A stretch of DNA of 33,825 bases. It comes from Dehalococcoidia bacterium (GTDB lineage Bacteria > Chloroflexota > Dehalococcoidia > UBA2247 > RBG-13-53-26). A model generated the notes under the pieces. That model did no database searches and was not told where the DNA came from. It saw only the letters and a list, made by a program, of their open reading frames with translations. The position numbers were made by a program, and so were the translations under genes. Below, piece by piece: positions 7,556-29,200 of the stretch. The stretch's first letter is position 1, and each line of letters starts with the position of its first letter. The stretch is taken from the NCBI GenBank assembly GCA_016932645.1, contig JAFGCL010000143.1, positions 1 through 33,825 of the forward strand. Reading direction: 5' to 3'.

Positions 7556-8953
7556 TCATTGGGTTGCGACTGTTGCCTCTCGTTCGATCAAGGCTGCAAC
7601 CAACCTGGCATTCTCAAGGGCACGCTGCTTGATGGCATTCTTTCTCTCCGCCAATTCTGTTTTGGCGGTCTCCTTGTTGCGCCACAAAATGTCGAACTTA
7701 GCCATGACTTCTTCAACCGCGAACTTGCTGCAGACGTAGTCTTCTTGGCCCAGAAGCTGCATAATGCCATGAAACTTGTGATGATACTGTATCCCCAACG
7801 TAGGAACCCCCATCGAAAGCGCAGCAATGTTGGCATGCATCTTGGCTCCGACAAACAAGTCGCATTGCCCGATGACGGCCTTCAATTCAGCAGCCGAGTA
7901 GTCGCCATCCAACATGATTACACTCTCCGGGTGTCTTGTGCTCTGAAGAACTTGAGAACAGATCATCCTATCGTCAAGTACCGGATCGAGGTCATGTGGC
8001 ACCAGCACTACCATGGCGCCAATGCTCTCCACGAGGTGGTCCACCACTTGGGATATCCCTTCAACCCCGACGAAACTCAGCATATCGAGCCCTCTGAAAC
8101 GACCCGCCCGTTTCCGTAGATAGTCGGACCAAGTCTCTGGCATCAACAACCTAGTGGTGCGGAAGACTGATTGGAGGCATCTCAGATACGCCGATCTCTT
8201 GGCCTCGGTCATCAGAATCGTCCAACTGACTGTCATACCGACGAGTGGGTGATGGCCCGCACTAACCCCATGCGCGCGCAGAATTTCTCTGGCCCTTATT
8301 TCTGGAGCAGGATCGAGAGCAAAAGCCGGATCAGCAGTGACGTGTATCCGAGCCGAGTCAACGCCAAGTGTAGTCAGGTGCTTCACTGAGATCTCTTCTC
8401 TGACGTTGGCCAAGGCCAGCCTGCGAAGAGCCTGCCGTACTAGCCATCTCGTTGACCTCGATCTGAATGGACCCGGCGACTGCGCCCACATCACCACTGG
8501 TCTTGAGAGGAAAGCGCCGATCAGGATGTCTTTGGAGTGTTCGACGACCGTGATCATTCCGAAATCATCGCTGAAAGTGTCCATGCTGACATCCACTATG
8601 ACATCTGCACTGGCGTACTCCCTCAACTCCCTATCGCCAATTATGACTTTGGCGAGCAAGGGGATTCGCTTGTGCAGCAAGGCCCAGAACATAGACCGCA
8701 TGACATTGGAGGATGATTTGACCATGGTGAGAATGGAAAAAGACTTTGAAGAGAATGTCTTGTTTCTCACTACCCTCACGCCGCAGTCATCAGCAAAGGA
8801 TTCAGTCATCTGGATGTTTGTTGAGAACACAGCGTCAGGGATGTGCTCGCGGAGCATCATGATAGTAGACAATACGTGGGCAGAACTACCCTTGTTGTAC
8901 ACGCAACTCATGTTGTGAGCCAGCTGGCAGTTGGTGATGAAGATTGCTGCCAT
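7556..8953 (-). CDS. Polysaccharide pyruvyl transferase family protein
   Basis: A 465-residue cytoplasmic protein of the polysaccharide pyruvyl transferase family (CsaB/WcaK-like), which moves pyruvate from PEP to a sugar as a ketal or is otherwise tied to surface-glycan assembly. Recognisable elements are the N-terminal NKGSSAHVLSTI segment (the family's 'N.GD.a' region), VDVSMDTFSDDF, the RPVVMWAQSPGPF segment, LVPHDLDPVLDD and the C-terminal GAKMHANIAALSMGVPTLGIQYHHKFHG region (about residues 363-395). The last contains the conserved R/K-x-H and G-P-x-L-x-I-x-Y pattern. The C-terminus is a charged helix. It lies 147 bp after the GT-C-like gene in the same direction. The upstream ribosome binding site is weak. 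Whether it is a true pyruvyl transferase or one of the many family members with other roles cannot be told. Confidence 0.85.
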   Translation of the reverse strand: MAAIFITNCQLAHNMSCVYNKGSSAHVLSTIMMLREHIPDAVFSTNIQMTESFADDCGVRVVRNKTFSSKSFSILTMVKSSSNVMRSMFWALLHKRIPLLAKVIIGDRELREYASADVIVDVSMDTFSDDFGMITVVEHSKDILIGAFLSRPVVMWAQSPGPFRSRSTRWLVRQALRRLALANVREEISVKHLTTLGVDSARIHVTADPAFALDPAPEIRAREILRAHGVSAGHHPLVGMTVSWTILMTEAKRSAYLRCLQSVFRTTRLLMPETWSDYLRKRAGRFRGLDMLSFVGVEGISQVVDHLVESIGAMVVLVPHDLDPVLDDRMICSQVLQSTRHPESVIMLDGDYSAAELKAVIGQCDLFVGAKMHANIAALSMGVPTLGIQYHHKFHGIMQLLGQEDYVCSKFAVEEVMAKFDILWRNKETAKTELAERKNAIKQRALENARLVAALIEREATVATQ

Positions 8954-12899: not shown

Positions 12900-13853
12900 T
12901 CATTGACCATATATCCAACGGCCAAAGGCATAGCCTGTCGCCATGAGCGAGAGGTTCATGACGATGGCTGCTGCTTGAGGCAGACTGGTCGGACGATAGA
13001 AGTAGATCAGCCTCTGTACCATCGATCCGAAGACGAGTTTGCGAAGAAAGACACCCTCAGCCGCAAGCGGTTCGGTATTGTATTGTGACACCACTCCCTT
13101 CATCAGAGCCCTAGTGTGCCCTTCACGAAGGCAGAAGTCAAGCATATATCTCAGTCTTGCCCTGTTGTGTACAACCTTGTGATGCACGACGGCTTCAGGT
13201 CTGAAGATGATTCTGCCTTCAGGAATGCGGCTCTTGATTCGGAGGCACATTTCCGCTTCCTCTCCCCCAGAGGGATTGAACCTCTTTCTCTTGAGCTCGC
13301 ATCGCCCCAACCTCGTTTCCCAAAGCCCCGCCTTCTCAAAGACTTCCCGCCGAAAGGCCATGTTACTTCCGGTCACGTTTCGAATGGCACCATCAGGTCG
13401 CATCATGAGACCCTTGTGCTCCGTGCAGCCAACAACAAAGTCAAACTCCATTGGAAACCACAGCGGAGGAGATCCATCGGGCCAAGCGGCGACTGCCTGA
13501 CCACCCACCGCTACAACTCTGGGATCATCGAAGGCTGGAGCGAGGTTCTCCAGCCAACTCTCCTCAGCTACTGCGTCGTCATCGAGAAAGGCAACTATTT
13601 CGCCGGTTGACGATTGGATACCGGTATTCCGTGTGTTCGACAGTCCGGGCGTGCCCGTGTTGAGAACCACGCATATCTCGGATGGGAGCTCAATCCTGAG
13701 CCTGTGAAACAGATCCTCGTTGCGGTCAATGGCTAGTATCAGTTGGTGTGGCTTAAGCGTCTGGGCAAGGACGGAGTCCACTGCTTCATGGATGTCCTTC
13801 AGGCGCTCTTCAGTGTAGGCGCAAATGATGACCGACACACTGGGGTATTTCAT
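12900..13853 (-). CDS. Family 2 glycosyltransferase
   Basis: A 317-residue GT-A fold transferase. It opens with SVSVIICAYTEERL, has the metal-binding acidic triad AFLDDDA (Asp91-93), the acceptor-side segment NVTGSNMAFRREVFEKAG, and the late catalytic GGEEAEMCLRI motif corresponding to the family's 'ED.dl..R'. The C-terminal ~45 residues contain one or two hydrophobic stretches (AAAIVMNLSLMATGYAFG) that may tether it to the inner membrane face. It should transfer a nucleotide-activated sugar to a lipid-linked glycan. It sits between another GT2 (67 bp upstream) and the Gfo/Idh gene. Confidence 0.9.
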   Translation of the reverse strand: MKYPSVSVIICAYTEERLKDIHEAVDSVLAQTLKPHQLILAIDRNEDLFHRLRIELPSEICVVLNTGTPGLSNTRNTGIQSSTGEIVAFLDDDAVAEESWLENLAPAFDDPRVVAVGGQAVAAWPDGSPPLWFPMEFDFVVGCTEHKGLMMRPDGAIRNVTGSNMAFRREVFEKAGLWETRLGRCELKRKRFNPSGGEEAEMCLRIKSRIPEGRIIFRPEAVVHHKVVHNRARLRYMLDFCLREGHTRALMKGVVSQYNTEPLAAEGVFLRKLVFGSMVQRLIYFYRPTSLPQAAAIVMNLSLMATGYAFGRWIYGQ

Positions 13854-13920: not shown

Positions 13921-14718
13921 TCAGCGTGCCATTTTCCCCGCCGGTCCGGGATGCCAGGTGGCGAGTTTGAGCATGATTCGCAAGTGCTGCCATCCTACCT
14001 GCAGGCCAGAGAGCTTGCTCTTGCCTATCCGCTCTTCGTAGTGAATGGGGATTTCACGCACTCCAAGGTTCATACGGCTCACCTTGATGGCAATCTCCGG
14101 TTCTATGGCAAAGCCTCGGGAGCAGATATTCATCCTCTGCAGTTGGTGCTTCCTTATCCCATAGAGACCTGTCGAATAGTCAGAGGCATGGAAACCATAC
14201 CCATACTTCATGATGGCCTGGAACGCGGCATTGCCCAGCCGATTCATGAGCGGAATGTTGTGCCGGCCTGTGCTTCGAGCGCAGTATACGGCTTCGCAAC
14301 ATTCAAGTATCTGGACCATTTGAGGGATGGCTTCCGGGGGGTAGGTACCGTCGGCATCGATGAAGATGACGTTCTTTCCGCGCGCATGTCTTGCCCCGGT
14401 CAGCATCGCTTCTCCTTTGCCGCGGTTCTGGCTGTGGCGTACTACTCCACAGCGGAATCGACTGGCGACCTGAGGCGTGGCGTCAGATGACCCATCGTCC
14501 ACCACAAGTACTTCGCACTGGCCATCAACACATGCGAAGAGTCGCTGTAGCACTACGGGCAGACCTTTCTCCTCGTTGTACGCCGGAATCACCACGGTAG
14601 CGACGAAGCCTGACTTTGTGTCAGGCCTTTTTACCACGACTTCCGAGGGTGTCAACTCACTGAGTGTTGCGCTTGCCGCTCCAGCTGACAGACTATCGAC
14701 ATCTGCACGTGTGTTCAT
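13921..14718 (-). CDS. DPM1/DPG-like polyprenyl-phosphate glycosyltransferase
   Basis: A 265-residue GT2 enzyme of the dolichol-phosphate-mannose-synthase type. Motifs in order: VVIPAYNEEKGLPVVL (43-58), VDDGSSDAT (73-81), the GKGEAMLTGARHA segment, IDADGTYPPEAI (DxD at 121-123), FHASDYSTGLYGIRK and EIPIHYEERIGKSKLSG. There is no C-terminal pair of transmembrane helices, so it is the short soluble or peripheral form. An unusual ~38-residue Ser/Thr-rich extension precedes the catalytic domain. ATG 14718 has GGGAGG upstream. It probably transfers a hexose from a nucleotide sugar to polyprenyl phosphate, giving the donor for the GT-C-like protein at 9101. A good promoter lies 830 bp upstream, with the repeated leader element between. 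Confidence 0.88.
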   Translation of the reverse strand: MNTRADVDSLSAGAASATLSELTPSEVVVKRPDTKSGFVATVVIPAYNEEKGLPVVLQRLFACVDGQCEVLVVDDGSSDATPQVASRFRCGVVRHSQNRGKGEAMLTGARHARGKNVIFIDADGTYPPEAIPQMVQILECCEAVYCARSTGRHNIPLMNRLGNAAFQAIMKYGYGFHASDYSTGLYGIRKHQLQRMNICSRGFAIEPEIAIKVSRMNLGVREIPIHYEERIGKSKLSGLQVGWQHLRIMLKLATWHPGPAGKMAR

Positions 14719-15010: not shown

Positions 15011-15150
15011 CCAGAAAACAACGAAACCGACCTCGAGGTCGGTTTCACTATTGGCTCCCTACCACCCAAGTGACCATTTACAGATGGCAGTTCAACACCC
15101 CCAGTGTCTGCTAGTTGGCCTTCAAGCTACGCTTCTCTCCCCGCCAGACC
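15011..15150 (-). repeat. Structured leader element, copy 2 (inverse of 25150-25296)
   Basis: Read on the minus strand this contains a GGGGxxAGAAG-like block, TAGCAGACACT (15113-15103), GTTGAAC (15096-15090), TGGTCACTT, CAATAGTGAAACCGACCT and TCGTTGTT..CTGG. All occur in the same order in the copy at 25.2 kb. The segment flanking TGGTCACTT can pair as CTGCCA/TGGTAG (one G-U). The corresponding arms in the other copy are CCCCTGCC/GGCAGGGG: different bases, but still paired. It lies ~300 bp before the DPM1-like gene and ends in a terminator. It could be an attenuator, a small RNA or a conserved 3' element. Confidence 0.6.
15023..15046 (-). terminator. Palindromic terminator in leader element copy 2
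   Basis: A perfect 24-bp palindrome (GAAACCGACCTC / GAGGTCGGTTTC) is followed on the minus strand by GTTGTTTTCTGG. The T-richness on that side and the identity with the + strand terminator at 25259 fix the orientation. Confidence 0.6.
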
Positions 15151-15759: not shown

Positions 15760-16842
15760 TCATATTCGGATGCTCCTATCCCAGATTCTGCGTCGGTTCC
15801 TCCAAAGGTACTTCCTGTCATGGCAGACGCTACGGACCAGAACAGGTGTCTTTTCCATAATGGTCCTCGCGAGTGAGTATCTCTTCTCGTAGATGCGCAC
15901 AGGCACTCTGGTTCCCTTGAATCTCTCCTTAAAGAATGCCAGGCTCTCTGTATCTGTGTATCCAAGATCAGCATATCTGTAGCCGGTGTTGCAGGCATCC
16001 TCAATTGCTGTCTTCCAGCATAGTTTGTTGGCATTGTCAGTGTCCTTCTCGTAGCTCCCTACTCTGGCCAGATAGCATGTCGTGGGAGTGTAGTGGCACA
16101 ACAGCGTGACGATGGGCTTGTCGTCAAGCAAGGCGACGAATAGCTTCGTTCGATCCCGGAATACATCCAGTCGCACCATGATCTCATCTCTGTTGGGAGG
16201 TCTTGCCCCGCGCCGCTTCTCGTTTTCCGATAGCATGACTACGAAATCCTCGGCATACTTGAGCTCTTGATCCCAGAGAACCACCACTCCGCTTTTTGCC
16301 GCTTTCTTGATGGCCCTCCTGAAGTTGTCTGACCATCCTTTCCAGATGTTCTCTTGGAAGGGCAGTTTCAATGTGAGAACGTAGTCACAGGGTAGTCCAG
16401 TCTTGCTGTCGTATCTGCAGTGGAATCCACTATCGACCAGGGCCGCAGCAGGTCCTTCAGCCAGCGTGCCAGCCTTCGGGGGAGCACATGCCAGCCTGAA
16501 GGAAGAACACCTGCGAGAGTAGTGGGAATCAACATACTCCAAGAGTGCTGTGGTTGCGCCATGTCTTTCGTTGTCCGTTAGATCGCTCCTTAGTAGAAGG
16601 CCTTGTGCTCCGCCTCCGCTGCCGGAGTCGAGAGTTGAGTATAGTAGCCCGCTCTGTCTGACTATGGAAAGCACACCAACGAGCTGGGAGGAAGCAGTAT
16701 CGATCAAGAGCGGGATGAATTCGTTTCCTGCGGCCTCGTGGACATACTTCCAGCCGAAATACAGACAGAAACCTCCGCTTTCGCTATCCACGAAGGCGTC
16801 CCAAGCCGCCTTGTCAGCCGGAGTAGCTTCTCGTACTCTCAT
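15760..16842 (-). CDS. FemAB / GNAT-like transferase
   Basis: About 360 residues. The frame is open to a TTG at 16977, but the promoter at 16952-16981 implies transcription from ~16945, so ATG 16842 (MRVREATPADKAAWDAFV) is the sensible start. Two GNAT-type halves are visible, as in the FemAB/Acetyltransf_6 group. The first has FCLYFGWKYVHEAAGNEFIP, IPLLIDTASSQLVGVLSIV and GGGAQGLLLR. The second has the signature WKGWSDNFRRAIKKAAKSGV, FVALLDDKPIVTLLCHY and YADLGYTDTESLAFFKERF. Proteins of this group add amino acids from aminoacyl-tRNA to peptidoglycan, or act in exopolysaccharide biosynthesis loci, for example on sugar amines. Here the neighbours are glycan enzymes, so the second role is more likely. 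It heads the minus-strand run but is separated from the next gene by 1 kb. Confidence 0.82.
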   Translation of the reverse strand: MRVREATPADKAAWDAFVDSESGGFCLYFGWKYVHEAAGNEFIPLLIDTASSQLVGVLSIVRQSGLLYSTLDSGSGGGAQGLLLRSDLTDNERHGATTALLEYVDSHYSRRCSSFRLACAPPKAGTLAEGPAAALVDSGFHCRYDSKTGLPCDYVLTLKLPFQENIWKGWSDNFRRAIKKAAKSGVVVLWDQELKYAEDFVVMLSENEKRRGARPPNRDEIMVRLDVFRDRTKLFVALLDDKPIVTLLCHYTPTTCYLARVGSYEKDTDNANKLCWKTAIEDACNTGYRYADLGYTDTESLAFFKERFKGTRVPVRIYEKRYSLARTIMEKTPVLVRSVCHDRKYLWRNRRRIWDRSIRI

Positions 16843-16951
16843 ACGGTTTCTTTCAGCCCGGATTTCCTGCCCCGAAGACAGTGCGAGATTGCTGATGTCT
16901 TGGCGTGAGCGACTGGTGGCCCCAGCCGCAGCCGGCTCTCGGCCAGACCTG

Positions 16952-16981
16952 ATTGTATTCCTTTCTCGAGCCGGCAATCAA
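16952..16981 (-). promoter_or_regulatory. Promoter of the FemAB-like gene
   Basis: TTGATT (16981-16976), 18-bp spacer, TACAAT (16957-16952) on the minus strand, about 110 bp before ATG 16842. It is back to back with the + strand promoter at 17040. Confidence 0.5.
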
Positions 16982-17039: not shown

Positions 17040-17069
17040 TTGACAGTCCCCGCTTGTTGGCACTATGAT
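17040..17069 (+). promoter_or_regulatory. Promoter of the Cys-rich gene pair
   Basis: TTGACA (17040-17045), 18-bp spacer, TATGAT (17064-17069): 11 of 12 consensus positions. It lies within the open frame that continues into the first Cys-rich gene, so that gene must start after ~17076. Confidence 0.65.
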
Positions 17070-17201: not shown

Positions 17202-17582
17202 ATGGTGAGTTGCATTGGGAAGATCCTTGAGCCTTTGCCGCTTCTCTTTCTGGGCAAGCGGAGTGCGGTGCACAAGTTCGCCGTAGGTGAGTCAGTGCGA
17301 GTCAAAGACGGGGAGAGGATATCGGAATCAGTACAGCCAGCAAACAAAAGGGATGGGTGCCTCTTCATGGATCAAATGTGGGGCTACTGTGGGAAGACGT
17401 ACAAAGTGTCAAAGGTGGTGGATTTCTTTCATAGCGAACGCAAGAGAGAGAACTTCCGACCGCGGTCGCCTCTCTACATACTGGAAGGATTGATTTGTGA
17501 AGGAAAGATGAGCCACTTTCCGTTCCCTTGCGATCGTGCCTGCCCCATCCTCTGGCATGAGGATTGGCTTGACAAGGTGTAG
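17202..17582 (+). CDS. Cys-rich protein of unknown function, paralogue 1
   Basis: A 126-residue protein from ATG 17202 (GAGAGG 10 nt upstream). The open frame begins at 17040, but that lies in the promoter; ATG 17178 has no ribosome binding site. After a short hydrophobic start (LEPLPLLFLGKRSAV) the domain reads GESVRVKDGERI, RDGCLFMDQMWGYCGKTYKV, LYILEGLICEG and CDRACPILWHEDWLDKV. Five cysteines (53, 63, 99, 110, 114) are shared with the next gene's product, and they could hold a metal ion or an Fe-S centre. I recognise the pattern as a recurring uncharacterised family often seen near polysaccharide genes, but I know of no function. It shows no signal peptide. The partner gene begins 67 bp downstream, so the two probably form one transcript. 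Confidence 0.78.
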   Translation: MVSCIGKILEPLPLLFLGKRSAVHKFAVGESVRVKDGERISESVQPANKRDGCLFMDQMWGYCGKTYKVSKVVDFFHSERKRENFRPRSPLYILEGLICEGKMSHFPFPCDRACPILWHEDWLDKV

Positions 17583-17649
17583 AAGTACCGTAGACTCGGT
17601 GGAGTACCTCCATCACCGATATCTCACTTGTCAGCGAAAGGCGTAGCAG

Positions 17650-18123
17650 ATGTGCCAACTGGAGTTCATCGAGGAGATTGAGCAAGAGAATAGTTGGCTG
17701 AACTCAAATTGGCAGCGCTTCACAAGAAGATGCTTACTCTTTCTGAGGTGGCCGAGAATTGCGGCTCGTCTCCCAATAGGGCGACCGCGTTGTTCTCAGA
17801 CTGACGGCAAGATCTTGGGACTGGACCATGGCCAAATCCAACCGGGTGATATGGTAAGGATTCGTTCAACAGATGAGATCAGGAAGATGCTGAACGGATC
17901 CGGGCGAACACGCGGATGCTTCTTCATGCCTGGAATGTACAAGCACTGCGGGAAGGAGTATAGAGTCTTCAAGAAGGTTGACCATTTCTTCGATGAAACA
18001 AGACGCGGAATGTGCAAGTGCAACAACCTGTTCCTTCTCGAAGGGGCTCACTGCAGCAAACCTGCCTGTGACCGAGACTGCTTCTTCTTCTGGCACGTCA
18101 GTTGGCTGGAGAAGATCCAGTAG
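17650..18123 (+). CDS. Cys-rich protein of unknown function, paralogue 2
   Basis: A 157-residue protein with a clear ribosome binding site (AAAGG, 9 nt before ATG 17650). The N-terminal ~65 residues (helical, basic, with RRCLLFLRWPRIAAR) do not match the neighbour. The core (66-157) does: GDMVRIRSTDEI, RGCFFMPGMYKHCGKEYRV, FKKVDHFFDE, LFLLEGAHC and CDRDCFFFWHVSWLEKI. Cysteines 90, 100, 135, 140 and 144 align with those of paralogue 1, and Cys122/124 are extra. The invariant W-LxK ending and the CDRxC motif suggest a compact metal-binding domain. The pair is transcribed away from the glycan operon but adjoins it. A minor TTGACA-N16-TAGACT at 17569-17596 could be a second promoter. Confidence 0.82.
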   Translation: MCQLEFIEEIEQENSWLNSNWQRFTRRCLLFLRWPRIAARLPIGRPRCSQTDGKILGLDHGQIQPGDMVRIRSTDEIRKMLNGSGRTRGCFFMPGMYKHCGKEYRVFKKVDHFFDETRRGMCKCNNLFLLEGAHCSKPACDRDCFFFWHVSWLEKIQ

Positions 18124-18271: not shown

Positions 18272-19942
18272 CTACGCTGCTGTGGCTACGATTGCGATGA
18301 GGTCTGCATTGTGACCTGTGCTCATCCCCAACTTTCCAACATGCTTGCCCCTTGAAGGGCGCTTGCTTGCTGCTTCTACCACCGCAAAACCCCCTGCCTT
18401 GGTACCGGTGCCATAGGGAGTGGTCACCGAGACATCCCTCAGCTCCAGAGCTGCGCTGGTGTCAATGGTGATGTTGATGGTTATCTGGTCCAGGCCATTG
18501 AGTTGCATACTATTGAATGTGAGGCTGTTCACCGTTATCCCTGGTCCGAAGTCTACGTTTGCCGCTCCGTCAAGGTACTGCCCGCTGATGACGACGGTGA
18601 GGGTCTGCCCCTGAGCTCCTTGACTGGGTAGAACGCTCCTGATAATGGGATGCTCGACAGGACTAATGGAGTAGTTCTCAAATGGCTGCATCAGCGGATA
18701 GTTGTCTTGCTGAGAGCCGCCCATGGAATAGGGGGTATCGCCAATGCCGTCGCCGTCCACGTCGTTTCCATAGTAGTTGCCCCAGTAGTTTCCCATGTAG
18801 CCCACACGAGTGCTTCCGTCATATTCATAGGTCAGCTGCCGAGGGAAGTTCAAGAGGTTTTCCTCGGTGGAGCACCCGTATGTGAACCTGAAGTTGTTGA
18901 GGTAGATTGTGTTGTTGACTGAGAGCCATGATTCCATGGCGTAGGCAGAGTCAAGGACGTCGTTCTCTGTTATAACATTACTTTCTGCAAGAGCCAGGTA
19001 GATCCCAAAGTAACTACCCAGAGTGTTCTTGGTCAACAGGTTGCATGTCGATTCATGCAGGTTGATGGCATACGTAGACCAGTTGATGATGTTGTTCTTC
19101 ACCGTACTGTTGACCGTGTTCCAGAGCTCTATGCCAACCGTGGTGCTGTCCAGCGTCAGGCCATCGACGGTGATGCGGTCGCAGTCTACGAGTATGACCT
19201 GGCCCACATCGGGTCCGGTGACTGTAGCGCCGGATACACCTTCGAGGTAGACCAGGGGTTTGCCATTGACCGTGTTATCCTCCACCGTATTGTGTCGAGC
19301 TGAGACATAGAGACCGCTATGTGTGAAGACATTGCCGGCTATGACGTTCTCGCTAGACTCGGAGCCCAAGTCGAGACCATAGTAGCCGGTGTCAGAGAAT
19401 GTGTTGCCCGACACTGTATTGCCATCTGAGCCAGCGATTCTAATGCCATAGTACCAATTGGCGGAAAGGTAGTTGCCAATCAGCGTGTTCGAATCCGAGT
19501 TCTCCAATTGAATTCCCGCGCAGTTGCTGATGAGGCTGTTGCCGGATATCGTGCAGTGGCTCACGTTCATGAGGCTGATTCCAGCGAACAACCATCCAGT
19601 GGCGTCTCTCACCGTGAGTCCACTTATGTTGACGCCGTCGGCTGTCACGCAGAAGACATCATCATCGCGATTCGCCGCTTGGACAGTTGTTGCTGCAGCA
19701 CCGTGCTCCGATTGTATCGTCACCGCCTTGGCTACATTCACATTATCCGTGAACAGACCGTCCCCCAGGATAATAGTGTCTCCAGGGCTTGCAGAGTCCA
19801 CAGCATCCTGGATACTCTCACCCGGATTCACATACCATGTCGTCGCTGCCCTCACCGGGCGCGCCGACGGCGGAACAAGCACGTAGACCAACGATAGACA
19901 TAGGGCCAAGGCAACGAGCATGGAAACAAGTCTGGCTGTCAT
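18272..19942 (-). CDS. Exported NosD-type beta-helix protein with TIG domain
   Basis: A 556-residue protein. The frame is open to 20026, but ATG 19942 has GGGGGG 5 nt upstream and opens a signal peptide (LVSMLVALALCLSLVYVL). Residues ~35-400 are a right-handed parallel beta-helix of the NosD/PbH1 type. It has the start motif SIQDAVDSASPGDTIILGDG, many NxxxGNxxSxN rungs (CTISGNSLISN, NTVSGNTFSD) and the classic NosD signature NYWGNYYGNDVDGDGIGD / DNYPLM near the end. An IPT/TIG domain follows at ~430-523 (SVLPSQGAQGQTLTVVISG to GTGTKAGGFAVV), then a ~33-residue tail without an anchor. Such proteins are secreted or surface-bound and may bind or cleave polysaccharide. No lyase residues can be assigned. 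Confidence 0.88.
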   Translation of the reverse strand: MTARLVSMLVALALCLSLVYVLVPPSARPVRAATTWYVNPGESIQDAVDSASPGDTIILGDGLFTDNVNVAKAVTIQSEHGAAATTVQAANRDDDVFCVTADGVNISGLTVRDATGWLFAGISLMNVSHCTISGNSLISNCAGIQLENSDSNTLIGNYLSANWYYGIRIAGSDGNTVSGNTFSDTGYYGLDLGSESSENVIAGNVFTHSGLYVSARHNTVEDNTVNGKPLVYLEGVSGATVTGPDVGQVILVDCDRITVDGLTLDSTTVGIELWNTVNSTVKNNIINWSTYAINLHESTCNLLTKNTLGSYFGIYLALAESNVITENDVLDSAYAMESWLSVNNTIYLNNFRFTYGCSTEENLLNFPRQLTYEYDGSTRVGYMGNYWGNYYGNDVDGDGIGDTPYSMGGSQQDNYPLMQPFENYSISPVEHPIIRSVLPSQGAQGQTLTVVISGQYLDGAANVDFGPGITVNSLTFNSMQLNGLDQITINITIDTSAALELRDVSVTTPYGTGTKAGGFAVVEAASKRPSRGKHVGKLGMSTGHNADLIAIVATAA

Positions 19943-20016
19943 TATCCCCCCTTTGCGTGCGCATGCATTCCTCGCCTGACTTGCCGATTGGCATGCAGGC
20001 TGCGATATCACATCGG

Positions 20017-20046
20017 ACAATAGCACGAGGAAACCTCGGCTGTCAA
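20017..20046 (-). promoter_or_regulatory. Promoter of the NosD/TIG gene
   Basis: TTGACA (20046-20041), 18-bp spacer, TATTGT (20022-20017) on the minus strand, 75 bp before ATG 19942. The same GATG-TTGACA-GC...N...TATTGTCC arrangement occurs at 30712-30741 before the PPC-repeat gene. Confidence 0.6.
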
Positions 20047-20164: not shown

Positions 20165-23100
20165 CTATTCGGCCACAGCTCTCCTCAGTGCCAAATCTGC
20201 ATGTGCACCAAAGCCGATGCTGCCCTGATCGGTCTGGTCACCCGGTGGTTTGAGTACGCTCGTTGAGCCTGCCACAGTGAAGCCAAGAGCCTTGACGCCG
20301 GTACCTGCAGGAGTGGTGACCAAGACGTCTCTAACGCCAGGAGTGGCATCGCTGTCGATGGTGATGTTGACCGTTATCTGATCCAGACCATTGAACTGCA
20401 ACTCGTTCAGGCTGAAGCTGTTCACCGTTATCCCCGCGCCGAAGTCAACGCTGGTCACTCTGCCAAAGTACAGGCCGCTGATGACAACGGTGAGGGCCTG
20501 CACCTGGGCTCCCTGACTCGGCGAAAGCGCCACGACGACGGGCTGTTCGTTTGACAAAGTGAAGGACCATGGACTGGTCCATGGGCTCTCGCCGATGGCG
20601 TCATCTTCCGCTCTGACCCTCCAGTAGTAGATGCCATCAGCCAAGGCCTCAGTCAGAGTGTATTCCGAGATGCTCAATCCTGCCTCGTCGCGCACCGGAG
20701 AGGAGAACTCAGCGTTGTCATCGACCTGAACGTGGTAGGTCATGGCGGAGAGGGTTGACTCCTGGGCCATCTGGAGTTGCTGGATGACCACTGCTATATC
20801 AGAGACATCGCTCCAATCCAGCGTAGGAGTACCGTGGTTGAGGATAGCCCCATTGGCTGGGGACAGCAGGGCGGGAGGTATGATCATGGCAGGCGTGGTG
20901 AACCTCAGGTCATCCCCGTAGGCCGTGCCGTCGCCCACTGCCTTGGCCCTAAAATGGTAGGTCACACCTGGAGAAAGGGCACTGAGCTCAATCGTGAAGG
21001 CACCAACGTCAGTCATTGTCTGCGGCGTTGTCTCATTGCCGTAGCTCGGCGTAGGTCCCCACTCGAAGGACACCTCCACTGATGATGCCGAACCTAGTGA
21101 CACCAGATATCCTTCAAGGATGGCTGAGGCCGATGTGACATCACTGGCTATCAAGGTCGTGACGGATGGGTTAGCACTGGGCGCCCAGCCACTAGGATCC
21201 TGAAAGGGATAGCGATCCGCGACGGGGTAGTTCCCGTCCCAACCTTCAATGTGGTACGGCTGTGATCCATTACTGGGGTTGCCGGTGCAGGTGTGATCGT
21301 TCCAGTAGTTGCCCCCATCCACCGACCCGTTGTCCCAGCAGTTGGTTGTGGGCGTGATGCCGTCGGGAGGACTCCAGTCAGCAGCCTGACTCGAATCGCC
21401 TACATTGTCTATGAGGTTGTTGTGGTAGATCAGGTTGTAACCAGAGTAGTCAGTGAGATAGATGCCGAAGTCGGTGCCGTCCAAGATGCTATTGCCCCTA
21501 ATGATGTTCCTAAATGAGTAAAAGAGCCACATGCCATCGTCTCCGCTCGAAAGCACCCTGTTGTCCTCGATCAAGTTGTCGCCGTTGTACCCCCACATTT
21601 CCATGCCATTACCATTGTTGCTGGCCACCGTGTTGCCAGTGATCTGATTGTGGTTGGCATCCCAGTGGAGAAGAAAGCCATCGTTTTCGTTGAACGAGAC
21701 GTTGTTGTTCACAAACCTGTTGTTCTCCGAATAGAACAGGTAGACTCCGTCTTCGTTGTTGGAGCAAATGACATTCCCGCTGAAGGTATTGCCACATGAC
21801 TCGTAGAGGTAGACGCCATCACCGTTGCTTATGTTGGAGTTGGCCACAGTGATATTCGAGCAATATGCTAGCGTCAGGTGCGTCGTATCAAGGCCACCTA
21901 GCACCAGATCGGACTGACTGTAGTAGTAGTACACCGGCTTGCCGTTGACGGTGTTGGTGCTGTCAATCACATTGTTGAAGACATCCTGCTGTTTCCACCC
22001 AGGGTCCACGTGGATTCCATAGCCACCGCTATTGACTATGGTGTTGCCGGTTATCTGGTTCTGGCCATCATATAGGATGATTCCGCTGCAGACGTCAACA
22101 ATGGTATTACCAGTAATGACGTTGCCACTGCCCTCCATGTCTATGCCGGTTTCGAAGCCAGAAATGCTGTTGCCAGCTACAGTGTGACTGCCATCCTCTT
22201 CTTGTAGAGAATCTATCACAATGCCAGCGGAGGGACCACCACCCAGTATGATGTTGCCAGCTACCGTGCAGTTGTCATACCACTCTCCTGCAAAATGGCA
22301 GTCCTCTATGTGTATTCCGCACCCAGATGAGTTAGTCACCGCGAATCCCGAGACGGTCACATTCCCTTCACCCAGGTCAAAGTACCCTACGACGCTGGTA
22401 ACAGCAGGACCGTGCTCTGAGACTATGGTGAGACCAGGATAATCTATGTCAACGCATTCTGCATAGACTCCGTCCCTGACGATAATGGTATCCCCCTCAT
22501 CGTACTCGCCAGCACCGATTACAGCGGCCTGGATGGTGGGAAATTGGTCAGGCACGTAGATCGTTCGCGGTGCCGGAGGTAGGCCGATTGCAGCGCCATG
22601 ATAGACATAGGCCCGACCCTCATCGAACTCCTCGTTGTCGTATCCGTAGGCGCCGGCTATGGTGTCATCATAGCCGTCACCGTTCACATCCCCCGCCGAG
22701 GCTACTGAACAGCCGAACCAGGCTCCCTCTTGGTCGCTGTCTGCTGTCCAGTCGACAGTGGCGCTGAGCCCCATGGAGGAGCCATGGAAAACGTACGCTC
22801 GCCCCTCCTCTTCATGCCCGTTGTCACAATACTGCTCGCCGACAATGACATCCGCATATCCGTCCCCGTTGACGTCGCCGGCGCTGGCTACACTGCCGCC
22901 AAACTCGGCAGACCACTCTTCGCTGTCAGCGTGCCAATCGTAGCTGGCGCTCAACCCCGCGGCAGACCCATGGTAGACGTAAGCCAGATCTTCTCCCGGA
23001 GCGCCAATGATGACGTCGTCATAGCCATCACCGTTGACATCACCAATCCCACCCACGGAACTTCCCAATTCGTACCAGAAGGCCTCGCTGGCGGTCCAGT

Positions 23101-23992
23101 TGGGGCTGGTGCTCAAGCCGGTGGCGGAACCGTGGTAAGCATAAGCCACAGAGCCTCCCGGAGCGCCAATGATCACGTCGTCGTAGCTGTCACCGTTGAC
23201 ATCACCAGCTTCACCCACGGAACTGCCGAAGTCGTCGCAGAAGCCCTCAGTGGCGGTCCAGTTGGGGCTGGTGCTCAAGCCGGTGGCGGAACCGTGGTAG
23301 ACGTAAGCCACATCGTCTTCCGGAGCGCCAATGATGACGTCGTCATACCCATCACCGTTCACGTCTCCGGCGTTGGCTGCCGAATAGCCGAAGTAGGCGC
23401 CGGCTTGGTTGCTCTCCGCTGTCCAGTTGGGGGCAGTACTCAGACCACTTGCTGAACCATGGTAGACATACGCTCGACCTTCATCGGTCTCCCCATTGTC
23501 ATAGCAGTAGGCCCCCACTATAATGTCGTCGTAGCCATCACCATTGACGTCTCCCGCGGTGGCTGCCGAATAGCCGAAGTAGGCGCCGGCTTGGTTGCTC
23601 TCCGCTGTCCAGTCGGGGGCAGTACTCAGACCACTCGCTGAACCATGGTAGACATACGCTCGACCTTCATCTGCCTCTTCATTGTCATAACAGTACGCCC
23701 CCACGATGATGTCGTCGTACCCATCGCCATTGACGTCTCCGGCGTTGGCTACTGAGTAGCCGAAGTAGGCGCTGGCTTGGTTGCTCTCCGCTGTCCAGTT
23801 GTATTGGGTGGGCGCAGGAGTCCAATCCAACCCAGCAGGCACAGGCTGGTCGAGGGTCACTGCCCGAAGTGTCGTGTCGTCAGCAGCCAGATTCAGTGGG
23901 TGCACGTCTTGGGGAGACTCATACGCAGTGGCCAGAGCCAGGACTGCTATCAAGCATGCAAGTGTGGCAATGAACTGTCTCCTGATACTCAT
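20165..23992 (-). CDS. FG-GAP / beta-helix / FN3-like / TIG surface protein
   Basis: A 1275-residue exported protein: signal peptide at 1-23 (FIATLACLIAVLALATA), GGGGAGGT ribosome binding site. Residues ~76-475 carry seven FG-GAP repeats (FGYSVANAGDVNGDGYDDII...GRAYVYHGS), each with a DxNxDGxxD calcium-binding loop, as in integrin-alpha-like propellers. About 478-925 is a PbH1 beta-helix (IYVPDQFPTIQAAVI, then rungs such as NTFSGNVICSNN). Residues ~938-1032 are an FN3-like domain absent from the paralogue at 30909. About 1036-1145 is another beta-sandwich (PANGAILNHGTPTLDWSDVSD reads across it). About 1149-1240 is IPT/TIG, then a short tail. There is no membrane anchor. A large cell-surface adhesin or glycan-binding protein is likely. 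The repeats produce long antisense open frames that are not genes. Confidence 0.9.
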   Translation of the reverse strand: MSIRRQFIATLACLIAVLALATAYESPQDVHPLNLAADDTTLRAVTLDQPVPAGLDWTPAPTQYNWTAESNQASAYFGYSVANAGDVNGDGYDDIIVGAYCYDNEEADEGRAYVYHGSASGLSTAPDWTAESNQAGAYFGYSAATAGDVNGDGYDDIIVGAYCYDNGETDEGRAYVYHGSASGLSTAPNWTAESNQAGAYFGYSAANAGDVNGDGYDDVIIGAPEDDVAYVYHGSATGLSTSPNWTATEGFCDDFGSSVGEAGDVNGDSYDDVIIGAPGGSVAYAYHGSATGLSTSPNWTASEAFWYELGSSVGGIGDVNGDGYDDVIIGAPGEDLAYVYHGSAAGLSASYDWHADSEEWSAEFGGSVASAGDVNGDGYADVIVGEQYCDNGHEEEGRAYVFHGSSMGLSATVDWTADSDQEGAWFGCSVASAGDVNGDGYDDTIAGAYGYDNEEFDEGRAYVYHGAAIGLPPAPRTIYVPDQFPTIQAAVIGAGEYDEGDTIIVRDGVYAECVDIDYPGLTIVSEHGPAVTSVVGYFDLGEGNVTVSGFAVTNSSGCGIHIEDCHFAGEWYDNCTVAGNIILGGGPSAGIVIDSLQEEDGSHTVAGNSISGFETGIDMEGSGNVITGNTIVDVCSGIILYDGQNQITGNTIVNSGGYGIHVDPGWKQQDVFNNVIDSTNTVNGKPVYYYYSQSDLVLGGLDTTHLTLAYCSNITVANSNISNGDGVYLYESCGNTFSGNVICSNNEDGVYLFYSENNRFVNNNVSFNENDGFLLHWDANHNQITGNTVASNNGNGMEMWGYNGDNLIEDNRVLSSGDDGMWLFYSFRNIIRGNSILDGTDFGIYLTDYSGYNLIYHNNLIDNVGDSSQAADWSPPDGITPTTNCWDNGSVDGGNYWNDHTCTGNPSNGSQPYHIEGWDGNYPVADRYPFQDPSGWAPSANPSVTTLIASDVTSASAILEGYLVSLGSASSVEVSFEWGPTPSYGNETTPQTMTDVGAFTIELSALSPGVTYHFRAKAVGDGTAYGDDLRFTTPAMIIPPALLSPANGAILNHGTPTLDWSDVSDIAVVIQQLQMAQESTLSAMTYHVQVDDNAEFSSPVRDEAGLSISEYTLTEALADGIYYWRVRAEDDAIGESPWTSPWSFTLSNEQPVVVALSPSQGAQVQALTVVISGLYFGRVTSVDFGAGITVNSFSLNELQFNGLDQITVNITIDSDATPGVRDVLVTTPAGTGVKALGFTVAGSTSVLKPPGDQTDQGSIGFGAHADLALRRAVAE

Positions 23993-24544: not shown

Positions 24545-25024
24545 ATGGGGTTGTTGCGTCGTTCGTACAAAATGCTGAAATCATCCGGCGTGCTCAGGCC
24601 GGAGCTGGTTGTGGCCATCTTCTGTTTCCTCTTGCCGGACCTACTGGACAAGCCACTCTGGATGCTGGGAATAGGCATGGGCAGATTCGTCGGACATACA
24701 CTCCTCTTCGTCTTCCTTGTTGCGTTTGTCTTCTTTCTGATCAAGAGGTCATACGGTCTGTTTGCTCTGATCGGAGGGATGGCACATCTACTGTCAGACG
24801 TCAATGGTATCGTGCCATGGCTATACCCATTCAAGAAGTATGACTTTCCACAATGGGAGTTCTGGGACACTCTCAGATGGTATTGGGTGGTTAGATGGTT
24901 TGTGGAACTGATGTTGGTTGTCCTGGTGGTATTTCTCTTGCTGTTCTTCATGTCCCACAGAAAGAATCGGGGCGATCTGGGACCACGTGATGATGAGGCA
25001 ACTGGACGGACAGACAAGCCCTAG
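24545..25024 (+). CDS. YdjM/DUF457-like membrane protein
   Basis: A 159-residue integral membrane protein with about four hydrophobic helices (for example LVVAIFCFLLPD, FVGHTLLFVFLVAFVFFLI and MLVVLVVFLLLFFM) and a hydrophilic tail. The polar residues within the helices follow the pattern of the YdjM/DUF457 family of predicted membrane metal-dependent hydrolases: LPDLLDKP (Asp32, Asp35), GRFVGHTLL (His51) and GGMAHLLSDVNGIVPWLYPF (His81, Asp85). The family's biochemical function is poorly known. The start has only a modest ribosome binding site (GAGAG). It is followed by the repeated leader element and terminator, so it is probably a single-gene transcript with some read-through to the gene at 25446. 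Confidence 0.8.
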   Translation: MGLLRRSYKMLKSSGVLRPELVVAIFCFLLPDLLDKPLWMLGIGMGRFVGHTLLFVFLVAFVFFLIKRSYGLFALIGGMAHLLSDVNGIVPWLYPFKKYDFPQWEFWDTLRWYWVVRWFVELMLVVLVVFLLLFFMSHRKNRGDLGPRDDEATGRTDKP

Positions 25025-25149: not shown

Positions 25150-25296
25150 TGTCTATGAGGGGCGCAGAAGAGACTAAGTAGCAGACACTCACGCACAAGC
25201 AGGAGACGTTGAACCCCTGCCTCTATGTGGTCACTTTGGCAGGGGTGAGTCAATAGTGAAACCGACCTCGGAAGGTCGGTTTTTTCGTTGTTCTGG
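25150..25296 (+). repeat. Structured leader element, copy 1 (inverse of 15011-15150)
   Basis: Contains GGGGCGCAGAAG, TAGCAGACACT (25179-25189), GTTGAAC, an 8-bp stem CCCCTGCC/GGCAGGGG (25214-25221 with 25238-25245) around TGGTCACTT, then CAATAGTGAAACCGACCT and the terminator. It lies between the YdjM-like gene and a small gene starting at 25446. No known riboswitch or T-box consensus fits. Confidence 0.6.
25259..25285 (+). terminator. Intrinsic terminator in leader element copy 1
   Basis: A 10-bp stem AAACCGACCT / AGGTCGGTTT with a 4-nt loop followed directly by a run of six Ts (25280-25285). It lies 235 bp after the YdjM-like stop codon and 160 bp before ATG 25446. Confidence 0.8.
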
Positions 25297-26210: not shown

Positions 26211-29200
26211 TCACTCCACCACGGTGAAGCCCCCTGTCTTCGTTCCGGTGCCGCTAGGGGTGGTCACCGAGACGTCCCTCAGACCCAGATCGGCGCCGGC
26301 ATCAATGGTGATGCTGACAGTTATCTGGTCCAGACCATTGAGATGCAGCTCGTTCAAGCTGAAGCTGTTCACCGTTATTCCTGTGCCGAAGTCTACGTCG
26401 GTCACTTCGCCAAAATACAAGCCGCTGACTACAACGGTGAGGGTCTGCCCGCGAGCGCCTTGGTCAGGAAAGACATGCAATATGATGGACTTCGGCCCCA
26501 GCACCGTGAAACCGCCCACAAGGGTGCCTGTGCCATTGGGAGTGCTCACTGAGACATTCCTGGCACCTAGCGTGGACAGACTGCTGATGGAGATCTGGGC
26601 CGTTATCTGGGTGGCGCTGTCCACTGTGAAGCTGTTCACCGCGACGCCTGGTCCAAAGTCCACATTGGAGGCGTCGGTGAAGTAGTTGCCCGCAATGATG
26701 GTGGTGAGGATCTCTCCTTGGCCCCCGTGGTCGGGGCTCACTGAGGTTACCACCGTTGGCGTGGTACCGGGGTTGAGCGAAAGCCTGTAGCTGCCCGTGT
26801 AGTATCCGTAGTGGTCGCCAGCCAGAACGGTGTACTGGCCGGCTGTCGGCAACGATTGGCTGATCTCGGCCAGGCTGCTGCCGTAGACCGTCTGAAGCAG
26901 AGTACCGTCGGGACTGTACAGTCTGATCTCGGGGTAGAAGCTAGTAGAAGCAGGTTCGGCCATCCTCACCAGGACGGCATCACCGGCATTGCCAGTGAAG
27001 GTGTAGCTATCCATCTCCGCGTACTGAGTGATTGAGGACGAGATGGTCTGGCCAAAACCGATAGCTGCAGCATTTCCGGGATTGTTGGTCCTCTGGACAA
27101 ACAGGCCATAGTCGCCGGCGTAGTATCCGTTGTGGTCGCCAGCCAGAATGGTGTACTGGCCGGCTGCCGGCAGCGATTGGCTGATCTCGGCCAGGTGGCT
27201 GCCGTAGACGGTCTGAAGCAGAGTGCCGTCGGGCCAGTACAGCCTGATCTCAGGGTAGAGGCTGGTGGCATGCTCGCCCATCCTCACCAGGACATCATCA
27301 CCGGCACCGGCCGTGAAGGTAAAACTGTTCATCTCCCCATACAGAGTGATGGAGGTGGGGATGGTCTGGCCAAAACCGACAGCGGTGGCATTTCCGGGAT
27401 TGTTGGTCCTCTGAACAAGCAGGCCATAGTTGCCGGTGTAGTATCCGTTGTGGTCTCCAGCTAGAACAGTATACTGGCCGGCTGTCGGCAGCGATTGGCT
27501 GATCTCGGCTAGACTGCTGTTGTACACCGTCTGAAGCAGAGTGCCGTCGGGGCCGTACAGTCTGATCTCAGGGTAGAGGCTGCTGACAGGTTCGCCTATC
27601 CTGACCAAGATGGCGTCACCGGCATTGGCCGTGAAGGTGTAGCTGTCCATCTCCGCATACAGGGTGATGGAGCCAGAAATGGTCTGGCCAAAACCGACAG
27701 CAGCGGCGTTCCCCGGATTGTTGGTCCTCTGAACAAACAGGCCGTAGTCCCCGGTATAATATCCGTTGTGGTCTCCAGCCAGAACGGTATACTGGCCGGT
27801 CGCCGGCAATGATTGACTGATCTGGGCCAGGCTGCTGCCATAGACGGTCTGAAGCAGAGCGCCGTCGGGTCCGTACAGTCTGATCTCGGGGGAGGCGCTG
27901 GTATAGTCGGCTATCCTCACCAGAACGGCGTCGCCGGCATTGGCGGCGAAGGTGTAGCTGTCCATCTCCGCATACAGGGCGGTGGAGGCTGCAATCGTCT
28001 GGCCAAAACCGATAGCAGCGGTGTTTCCCGGATCGTTGGTCCTCTGGACAAACAGGCCATAGTTGCCGCTATAGTACCCGTAGTGATCGCCAGCCAGGAT
28101 GGTGTACTGGCCGGTTGTCGGCAAGGATTGACTGATCTCGACCAAAGTACCGGCGTAGACGGTCTGAAGCAGAGCGCCGTCGGGACCGTACAGTCTGATC
28201 TCGGGGTAGAGGCTGCCGGTAGGTTCGGCTATCCTCACCAGGAGGGCATCACCGGCATTGGCGGTGATGGTGTAGCTGTCCATCTCCGCATACAGAGTGA
28301 GGGATGTAGAGATGGTCTGGCCAAAACCGATGGCAGTGGCATTTCCCGGATTGTTGGTCCTCTGGACAAACAATCCATAGTTGCCGGTGTAGTACCCGTT
28401 GTGGTCGCCAGCCAGGATGGTGTACTGGCCCGTTGTCGGCAACGATTCACTGATCTCGGCCAGGCTGCTGTCGTAGACAGTCCGAAGCAGAGCGCCGTCA
28501 GGCCCGTACAGTCTGATATCGGGGTAGACGCTGGTGTAGTCGGCTATTCTGACCAGGACATCATCGCCTGCACTGGCCGTGAAGGTGTAGCTGTCCATCT
28601 CCCCATACAGGGTGAGCGAGCCCGAAATCGTCTGACCAAGAGTGAAAGGAGTGGTATTTCCCGGATTGTTGGTCCTCTGGACAAACAGGCCATAGTTGCC
28701 GGTGTGGTATCCGTTGTAGTCGCCAGCCAGAACGGTGTAGAGGCCGGTTGTCGGCAACGATTGACTGATCTCGGCCAGGCTGCTGCTGTACACGGTCTGA
28801 AGCAGAGTGCCATCAGGGCCGTACAATCTGATCTCGGGGTAGATGCTGCCGGCAGGTTCGCCAATCCTCACCAGGACGTCATCGCCGGCATTGGCGGTGA
28901 AGGTGTAGCTGTCCATCTCCCCATAGAGGGCAATGGAAGTGGTAACAGTCTGGCCGAAAGTGAAAGGAGTGGCATTTCCCGGATTGTTGGTCCTCTGGAC
29001 AAACAGGCCATAGTTGCCGGTGTAGTAGCCGTTGTCATCGCCAGCCAGAAGGGTGTACTGACCGGCTGTTACCAACGATTGACTGATCTCGGCCAGGCTG
29101 CTGTTATAAACGTTCTGAAGGAGAGTGCCGTCGGGACCATACAGTCTGATCTCGGGGTAGAGGCTGGTGGAGTCTGCCATCCTTACTAGGACAGCGTCAC

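Follow-up and report, generated by a model that had tools for sequence, protein, structure and literature searches.

The adjacent genes P1 and P2 encode small members of a protein family that is phylogenetically broad but rare and that probably serves in the assembly or export of surface glycans. Models confidently predict an SH3-like fold for the family's domain. Both genes lie on the forward strand of the window, by which is meant the whole 33,825-nucleotide stretch of Dehalococcoidia DNA analysed here, with the following features:

17040..17069, + strand: sigma-70-like promoter match ahead of P1, 11/12 (consensus match only)
17202..17582, + strand: P1, 126-aa single-domain family member; start backed by the gene of a same-family genome
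17265..17579, + strand: SH3-like cysteine domain of P1 (alignment A2, profile match)
17569..17596, + strand: second sigma-70-like match, ahead of P2, 10/12 (consensus match only)
17650..18123, + strand: P2, 157-aa member with an N-terminal Met-Cys-Gln and a low-confidence helical N-terminal extension
17653..17658, + strand: Cys-Gln motif of P2, like the invariant linker Cys-Gln of two-domain proteins (sequence)
17827..18120, + strand: SH3-like cysteine domain of P2 (block means of pLDDT 89-98, residue 61 onwards)

A preliminary description of this DNA had reported tandem paralogues here, and both open reading frames were confirmed in place, at 126 and 157 aa. All the motifs that it listed were found in the two proteins, reading CLFMDQMWGYCGKTYKV, LEGLIC, CDRAC and WLDK in P1 and CFFMPGMYKHCGKEYRV, LEGAHC, CDRDC and WLEK in P2. 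Paralogy held up as well, since BLASTP aligned the two at 35% identity over 98 aa with an E of 9e-19, which is not a chance likeness. The adjacent pair also occurs in one same-genus genome (G002) and one same-family genome (G009), or 3 of 100 relatives searched with the window's own genome (G000) included. Between the window and G009, P1 showed a dN of 0.145 and a dS of 1.02 (ratio about 0.14) and P2 a dN of 0.233 and a dS of 0.91 (ratio about 0.26), ratios which argue that both are real genes, maintained as proteins under purifying selection. The pair had also been credited with one good promoter; the 11/12 match ahead of P1 agrees with this, but there is a second match ahead of P2. A promoter and terminator scan around P1 and P2 gave no terminator-like site, and no RNA structure beyond that of shuffled sequences was found between the genes.

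The earlier statement that the family has no assigned function is borne out within the searches made, where each Pfam or NCBIfam model matched at most 1 of 116 members. The window proteins themselves had no Pfam match above cut-off (best Skp1, E 0.51), none to NCBIfam or PADLOC, and no convincing one to PHROG. When the 116 members were scanned singly, two Pfam models and one NCBIfam model each matched one member at E 0.003-0.008, and we take these matches as chance. In the PDB, sequence searches produced no hit with an E below 0.17, and literature searches for the family or its motifs returned nothing on it, an absence that is claimed for these searches only.

Within the phylum, a profile built from six close members found the family in 6 of 400 genomes, the window's own included: as a single domain in G204, G328 and G447, as two domains in one ORF in G234 and G417, and as the pair in the window. 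A tblastn search with the G234 protein then placed two-domain homologues on plasmids of Mesorhizobium and Bosea and in Nonomuraea. A scan of GTDB confirmed 190 relatives, among which single-domain forms are under-sampled because the scan was seeded with four two-domain proteins. The best 80 of the 190, which make up the loci set used below, span nine named phyla and one unassigned record: Pseudomonadota (41), Acidobacteriota (17), Actinomycetota (12), Myxococcota (3) and Nitrospirota (2), with one each from four other phyla and the one unassigned. Both domains were seen in all but one of these best 80 (L095 is cut by a contig end, and L043 holds two family copies), and the family's prevailing form is a single protein of ~320-370 aa in which a helical linker joins the two domains. 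Rates among sampled genomes were 7/149 in Acidobacteriota, 3/299 in Pseudomonadota, 1/145 in Verrucomicrobiota and 3/296 in Actinomycetota (centre genome included). The family had been called widespread, which is true across phyla but not among genomes, where it occurs in about 1-5% of those in the sampled phyla. A search of viral contigs with A1 found no relative, and no phage was found to carry the two-domain protein.

What ties the family to glycans is its neighbourhood. A role in glycan assembly, offered earlier as an inference, is strongly supported by neighbours across many phyla. In the following counts, the first number refers to clustered ORFs in the 80 loci (best 80 of 190) and the second to a dereplicated set of 33 loci of at least 14 kb drawn from them: NTP_transferase 58 and 25, PIG-L 57 and 25, dTDP-sugar isomerase 51 and 24 (the cluster representative is a long read-through frame, and the 51 may hold a few shadow frames), Polysacc_synt_3 flippase 44 and 20, epimerase 37 and 12, C-methyltransferase 35 and 16, DUF4910 29 and 12, GT2 29 and 15, GDP_Man_Dehyd 27 and 9, Bac_transf 19 and 7, and DRL_cat 18 and 9. 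The last is an oxidoreductase that we take to belong to a DXR-like enzyme family. All six cassette families were present in 8 of the 33 dereplicated loci and none in 6. The labelled families turned up in 11 of 14 family loci versus none of 20 control regions of 20 kb; this control drew on three holder genomes, its label set excluded dTDP-isomerase members longer than 260 aa, and its FemAB labels were taken from the window, G009 and G447, which makes three FemAB hits self-matches. The neighbour count passed over clusters 12, 21 and 40, whose ORFs overlap the family gene on the opposite strand. Clusters c5, c8, c13, c14 and c19 (40, 34, 22, 22 and 15 loci) were set aside as probable antisense ORFs, with the look of shadow frames and no Pfam family. 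The long ORFs of L090 and L091 had suggested a fusion to DUF4910, a candidate that was rejected as an overlapping frame.

The flippase is the immediate neighbour of the family gene in 26 of the 80 loci (best 80 of 190), lying upstream in 12, downstream in 12 and divergently in 2, and in 5 of these 26 the two genes share a start-stop overlap. Annotated Mesorhizobium genes overlap in the same way; Nonomuraea has a GTG overlapping the stop. On a conjugative plasmid of Bosea sp. AS-1 (L019), no glycan gene apart from a divergent flippase is annotated in the ~9-12 kb on either side; the plasmid also bears heavy-metal transport genes. A recurrent sugar cassette of nucleotidyltransferase, C-methyltransferase, dTDP-sugar isomerase, SDR, PIG-L and DUF4910 was seen in L018, L016 and many of L020-L099, and is common to Alphaproteobacteria and Actinomycetota.

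Nearer to the window, a GNAT/FemAB-like gene is a neighbour in 6 of 8 same-phylum genomes, the window counted. G204, G328 and G447 share a gene order of FemAB-like, family gene, Bac_transf, GDP_Man_Dehyd and NTP_transferase, the last of which has a shorter frame in G447. That genome's FemAB-like protein matches no Pfam family at E 0.001, and its 65%-identical homologue in G540, also beside the family gene, matches Acetyltransf_6. In G417, an Acetyltransf_6 gene is followed by a single open frame that holds two domains and Bac_transf, an internal start being possible. In G009, the pair is followed by a FemAB-like gene and, two ORFs further along, by a Wzz-like chain-length protein, while the contig of the pair in G002 has GT1, ATP-grasp, a flippase and a weak polysaccharide-deacetylase match. 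Polysacc_synt_3 flippases occur in all three tandem-pair genomes, one of them about 4 kb from the pair. The window itself offers these neighbours:

7556..8953, - strand: polysaccharide pyruvyl transferase (PS_pyruv_trans, E 1.3e-37)
12900..13853, - strand: family 2 glycosyltransferase (Glycos_transf_2, E 1.4e-22)
13921..14718, - strand: family 2 glycosyltransferase (Glycos_transf_2, E 3.6e-29)
15028..15110, - strand: c-di-GMP-II riboswitch facing the glycosyltransferase genes (57.5 bits, gathering 53.5)
15760..16977, - strand: GNAT/FemAB-like transferase, divergent neighbour (Acetyltransf_6, 31.4 bits, over cut-off; true start maybe internal)
25195..25276, + strand: second c-di-GMP-II riboswitch match (above gathering score)

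The pair had been said to adjoin a glycan locus, and the GT2 and pyruvyl-transferase genes are indeed present, but the direct upstream neighbour is the GNAT/FemAB-like gene on the opposite strand, which lies next to them. Among the window genes scanned, no flippase was recognised, the genome's flippases lying on other contigs, and none of the PIG-L/DUF4910 cassette families was recognised there beside the GNAT/FemAB-like, glycosyltransferase and pyruvyltransferase genes, in a comparison whose label set included genes of the window itself.

The cysteines are a second defining feature, although fewer of them than the preliminary description had supposed. Its interpretation was upheld by the neighbours as to a glycan role, but a five-cysteine domain is not supported as a definition of the family, since no more than two of the cysteines are invariant and the first one listed is local. 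The cysteine of LEG-x2-C and the first of CDRxC are present in 190/190 domains of a partly redundant set, P1 and P2 have both, and every one of the 190 has at least three cysteines. The CG(K) cysteine is lost in 9/190 (2/90 of type I, 6/90 of type II and 1/10 of the others), and none of the 90 type II domains has the final C of CDRxC. Conserved cysteine positions number five in type I, which has its own extra cysteine in between (KTCDT), and core cysteines are usually three in type II, the C-terminal domains. The first cysteine of the preliminary description is absent from 164/164 typed outside domains and from P1 of G002; it occurs only in the window's own lineage and in a handful of single-domain relatives, and elsewhere the position is mostly Leu or Met. 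All 6 type II domains without the CG cysteine have an extra cysteine between the two invariant ones, versus 40 of the 84 that keep CG, a pattern that is only a hint because, by their names and sequences, the 6 stem from about two lineages. The W and L of WL near the C-terminus are invariant in both domain types, and P1 and P2 have both residues. Finally, a Cys-Gln occurs in the interdomain linker of 79/79 two-domain proteins (from the best 80 of 190) and in the N-terminal part of single-domain proteins, as MCQ in P2, GCQ in G447, G204 and G328, and PCQ in G588; P1 lacks it, as do N-terminal domains. Two invariant cysteines, Cys-Gln and WL together provide a working definition for a family that lies outside the Pfam and NCBIfam models searched.

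AlphaFold2 models were built from 116 sequences for P2 and from 66 for the two-domain protein of Nonomuraea. The P2 domain is predicted well from residue 61 and its N-terminal part is poorly defined, with a mean pLDDT of 43 for residues 1-10, which include the Cys-Gln. Conservation of this Cys-Gln at residues 2-3, even at an N-terminus without confident structure, fits no explanation well yet. The Nonomuraea protein reached a mean pLDDT of 92.9 and a pTM of 0.89, and its helical linker and both barrels are therefore predicted as one body. In the P2 model, DSSP assigns the strands of a hairpin to 103-115 and 120-130, with C140 and C144 further along. The hairpin would place C100 opposite C135, and the four cysteines could form a metal site there. 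A metal or Fe-S site is plausible in a cytosolic protein whose conserved cysteines lie close to the base of a single beta-hairpin.

The best structural matches of the P2 domain are Mib repeats and the ribosomal proteins L24 and L21e, all SH3-like. The nearest solved folds are nonetheless weak matches, with best E values of 7.7e-4 and 1e-2 and best Z scores of 8.2 and 7.4. No match in the Foldseek lists indicates function, and absence of a fold from those lists is no evidence against it. The best alignment of the P2 domain is to the Mib repeat (REP) of Mind bomb 1, at Z 8.2 and an rmsd of 2.5 over 71 residues; this, however, is a eukaryotic peptide-binding repeat with 20% identity in the aligned part, and the likeness may be that of a mere shared fold.

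How might such a protein act? Tentatively, and with somewhat less than an even chance of being right, P1 and P2 can be read as a cytosolic, probably metal-stabilised, non-catalytic adaptor at the flippase/tailoring step of Wzx-type glycan assembly. Under this reading, the family would consist of small cytosolic proteins whose SH3-like barrel and conserved cysteine cluster serve flippase-dependent assembly, with the cysteines binding a metal of structural function, zinc being the simplest choice, at the base of the main beta-hairpin. On the cytoplasmic side of the membrane, the surface of the barrel would dock onto the flippase, onto enzymes that build or tailor the lipid-linked repeat unit, or onto both, the candidates being the flippase, a GNAT/FemAB-like transferase, a glycosyltransferase and sometimes an initiating sugar transferase. 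Docking would ensure that only a properly tailored repeat unit gets flipped. For a small cytosolic protein that acts on such machinery there is a precedent in EpsW, which works on the phosphoglycosyl transferase EpsZ (PMC12802240). In most lineages, two barrels and the helical bridge would form one rigid protein, while the window's lineage probably relies on two single-domain proteins, encoded side by side, that act together. The analysis shows the family itself, its conservation, a predicted fold, linkage to glycan genes and a single in-frame fusion; from these we infer the metal, the docking partner and the gating role. A general mechanism built on partnership with Bac_transf was considered and then abandoned for the flippase/tailoring step, because no PF02397 match turned up in the three tandem-pair genomes G000, G002 and G009 (completeness 72.8, 85 and 63%). 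The initiating sugar transferase therefore cannot be the general partner, nor can it be the partner in these genomes unless its gene lies in the missing part. To our knowledge, how bacteria ensure that only complete, correctly modified repeat units pass Wzx-type flippases is largely an open question. A conserved cytosolic family whose genes neighbour flippases in several phyla, and which can occur fused with an initiating sugar transferase, is a concrete candidate for such export checking, and it has cultivated hosts in Mesorhizobium, Nonomuraea and Bosea.

The window's pair could be a two-domain protein split into two genes or a separate duplication. In the tree, P1, P2 and three single-domain proteins fall on one side with a support of 93, and P1 and P2 are joined with a support of 89. 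Trees in which P1 is held with type I (p 0.53) or P2 with type II (p 0.34) were not rejected, and the Cys-Gln of P2 mildly favours a split protein. A broader version of the adaptor reading would make the family previously undescribed, cross-phylum, metal-bearing double-SH3 adaptors that license lipid-linked glycans for flipping, with the Cys-Gln as functional centre and not as a structural detail, and with the window's lineage as a natural two-gene split; taken as a whole, this is unlikely.

Much of the same evidence could be read as that of a sugar-tailoring enzyme or subunit, whose cysteines, with or without metal, would form with the Cys-Gln an active site on a nucleotide- or lipid-linked sugar. 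The Cys-Gln is present in every one of the 79 two-domain proteins from the best 80 of 190, in an ordered linker, and long columns are invariant, a degree of cross-phylum conservation that appears high for an adaptor. Linkage to sugar-modifying enzymes is strong, and the differing partners of different lineages also fit an enzyme acting on a common intermediate. SH3-like barrels, however, are usually binding modules; moreover, the tailoring genes vary by lineage, the window and loci of the G204 type have no PIG-L cassette, and the single-domain forms lack most of the linker. A catalytic role is somewhat unlikely. A described setting of a similar sort is the CA_C2195 cassette, where a part in the synthesis of modified carbohydrates has been proposed, on the strength of gene neighbourhoods, for DUF4910, a frequent neighbour of the present family (PMC4000134); the family itself was not seen named in the passages of that paper used here. 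The two-domain proteins likewise sit with a nucleotidyltransferase, an epimerase, a methyltransferase and an exporter, but DUF4910 is a metallopeptidase-like protein, and the window lacks the cassette.

A redox or Fe-S switch, in which the cysteines would sense oxidation or iron and alter binding to a glycan enzyme, is improbable. Its attraction lies in the conserved cysteines, in the c-di-GMP-II riboswitches that may give a signal input in the window's family, and in the precedent of Myxococcus EpsW, a single-domain response regulator that controls the phosphoglycosyl transferase EpsZ by direct contact (PMC12802240). EpsW demonstrates that a small cytosolic protein can control a Wzx/Wzy-type pathway, but it has another fold and another signal and was established by experiment, whereas the present family is known from sequence and models; the window's genome, furthermore, has no detected Bac_transf. 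The number of cysteines differs by domain type, and the gene order suggests a component of the pathway and not a separate regulator. As to the riboswitches, the window's genome has 10 matches and five further genomes of the same family have 7-12; 12 of 41 genomes, the window's included, have any.

It is very improbable that the family supplies a nitrile-hydratase-beta-like subunit or a maturation factor acting with a partner hydratase. Nitrile hydratase beta (the PF02211 region) does dominate the Foldseek list of the two-domain model, with a best E of 7.7e-4 and TM values of at most 0.31, and VIA-align gave a Z of 5.9 over 83 residues; the two would share an SH3-like barrel behind a helical region, and a first strand resembling PGD-x-VRV occurs in both. 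Comparison by hhalign with one genuine chain, however, aligned one strand only, at probabilities of 13% and 6%, with no sequence homology detected over the full domain, and PF02211 was unmatched in the window's genome and in the 116 members. The present family differs further in its cysteine cluster, its two barrels per chain and its glycan, not hydratase, neighbours. Equally far-fetched is an RNA- or ribosome-binding KOW-like protein that sits in glycan loci by chance, which the L24 and L21e barrels among the structural matches would suggest but which runs against the glycan linkage across phyla, the in-frame fusion to a sugar transferase and the start-stop overlaps with flippases.

Other genes near the pair deserve mention. 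In G002, a gene for a YdjM-type membrane protein (L131:8437-9324) lies directly before the pair, and a homologue occurs in the window at 24545-25024 (+), ~6.4 kb from P1 and P2. Beside the pair, the window also encodes very large, secreted-looking repeat proteins (18272-20026, 20165-23992, 26211-30497, 30909-33701 (-)), which by eye contain beta-helix, FG-GAP and other repeats and share a C-terminal IPT-like segment.
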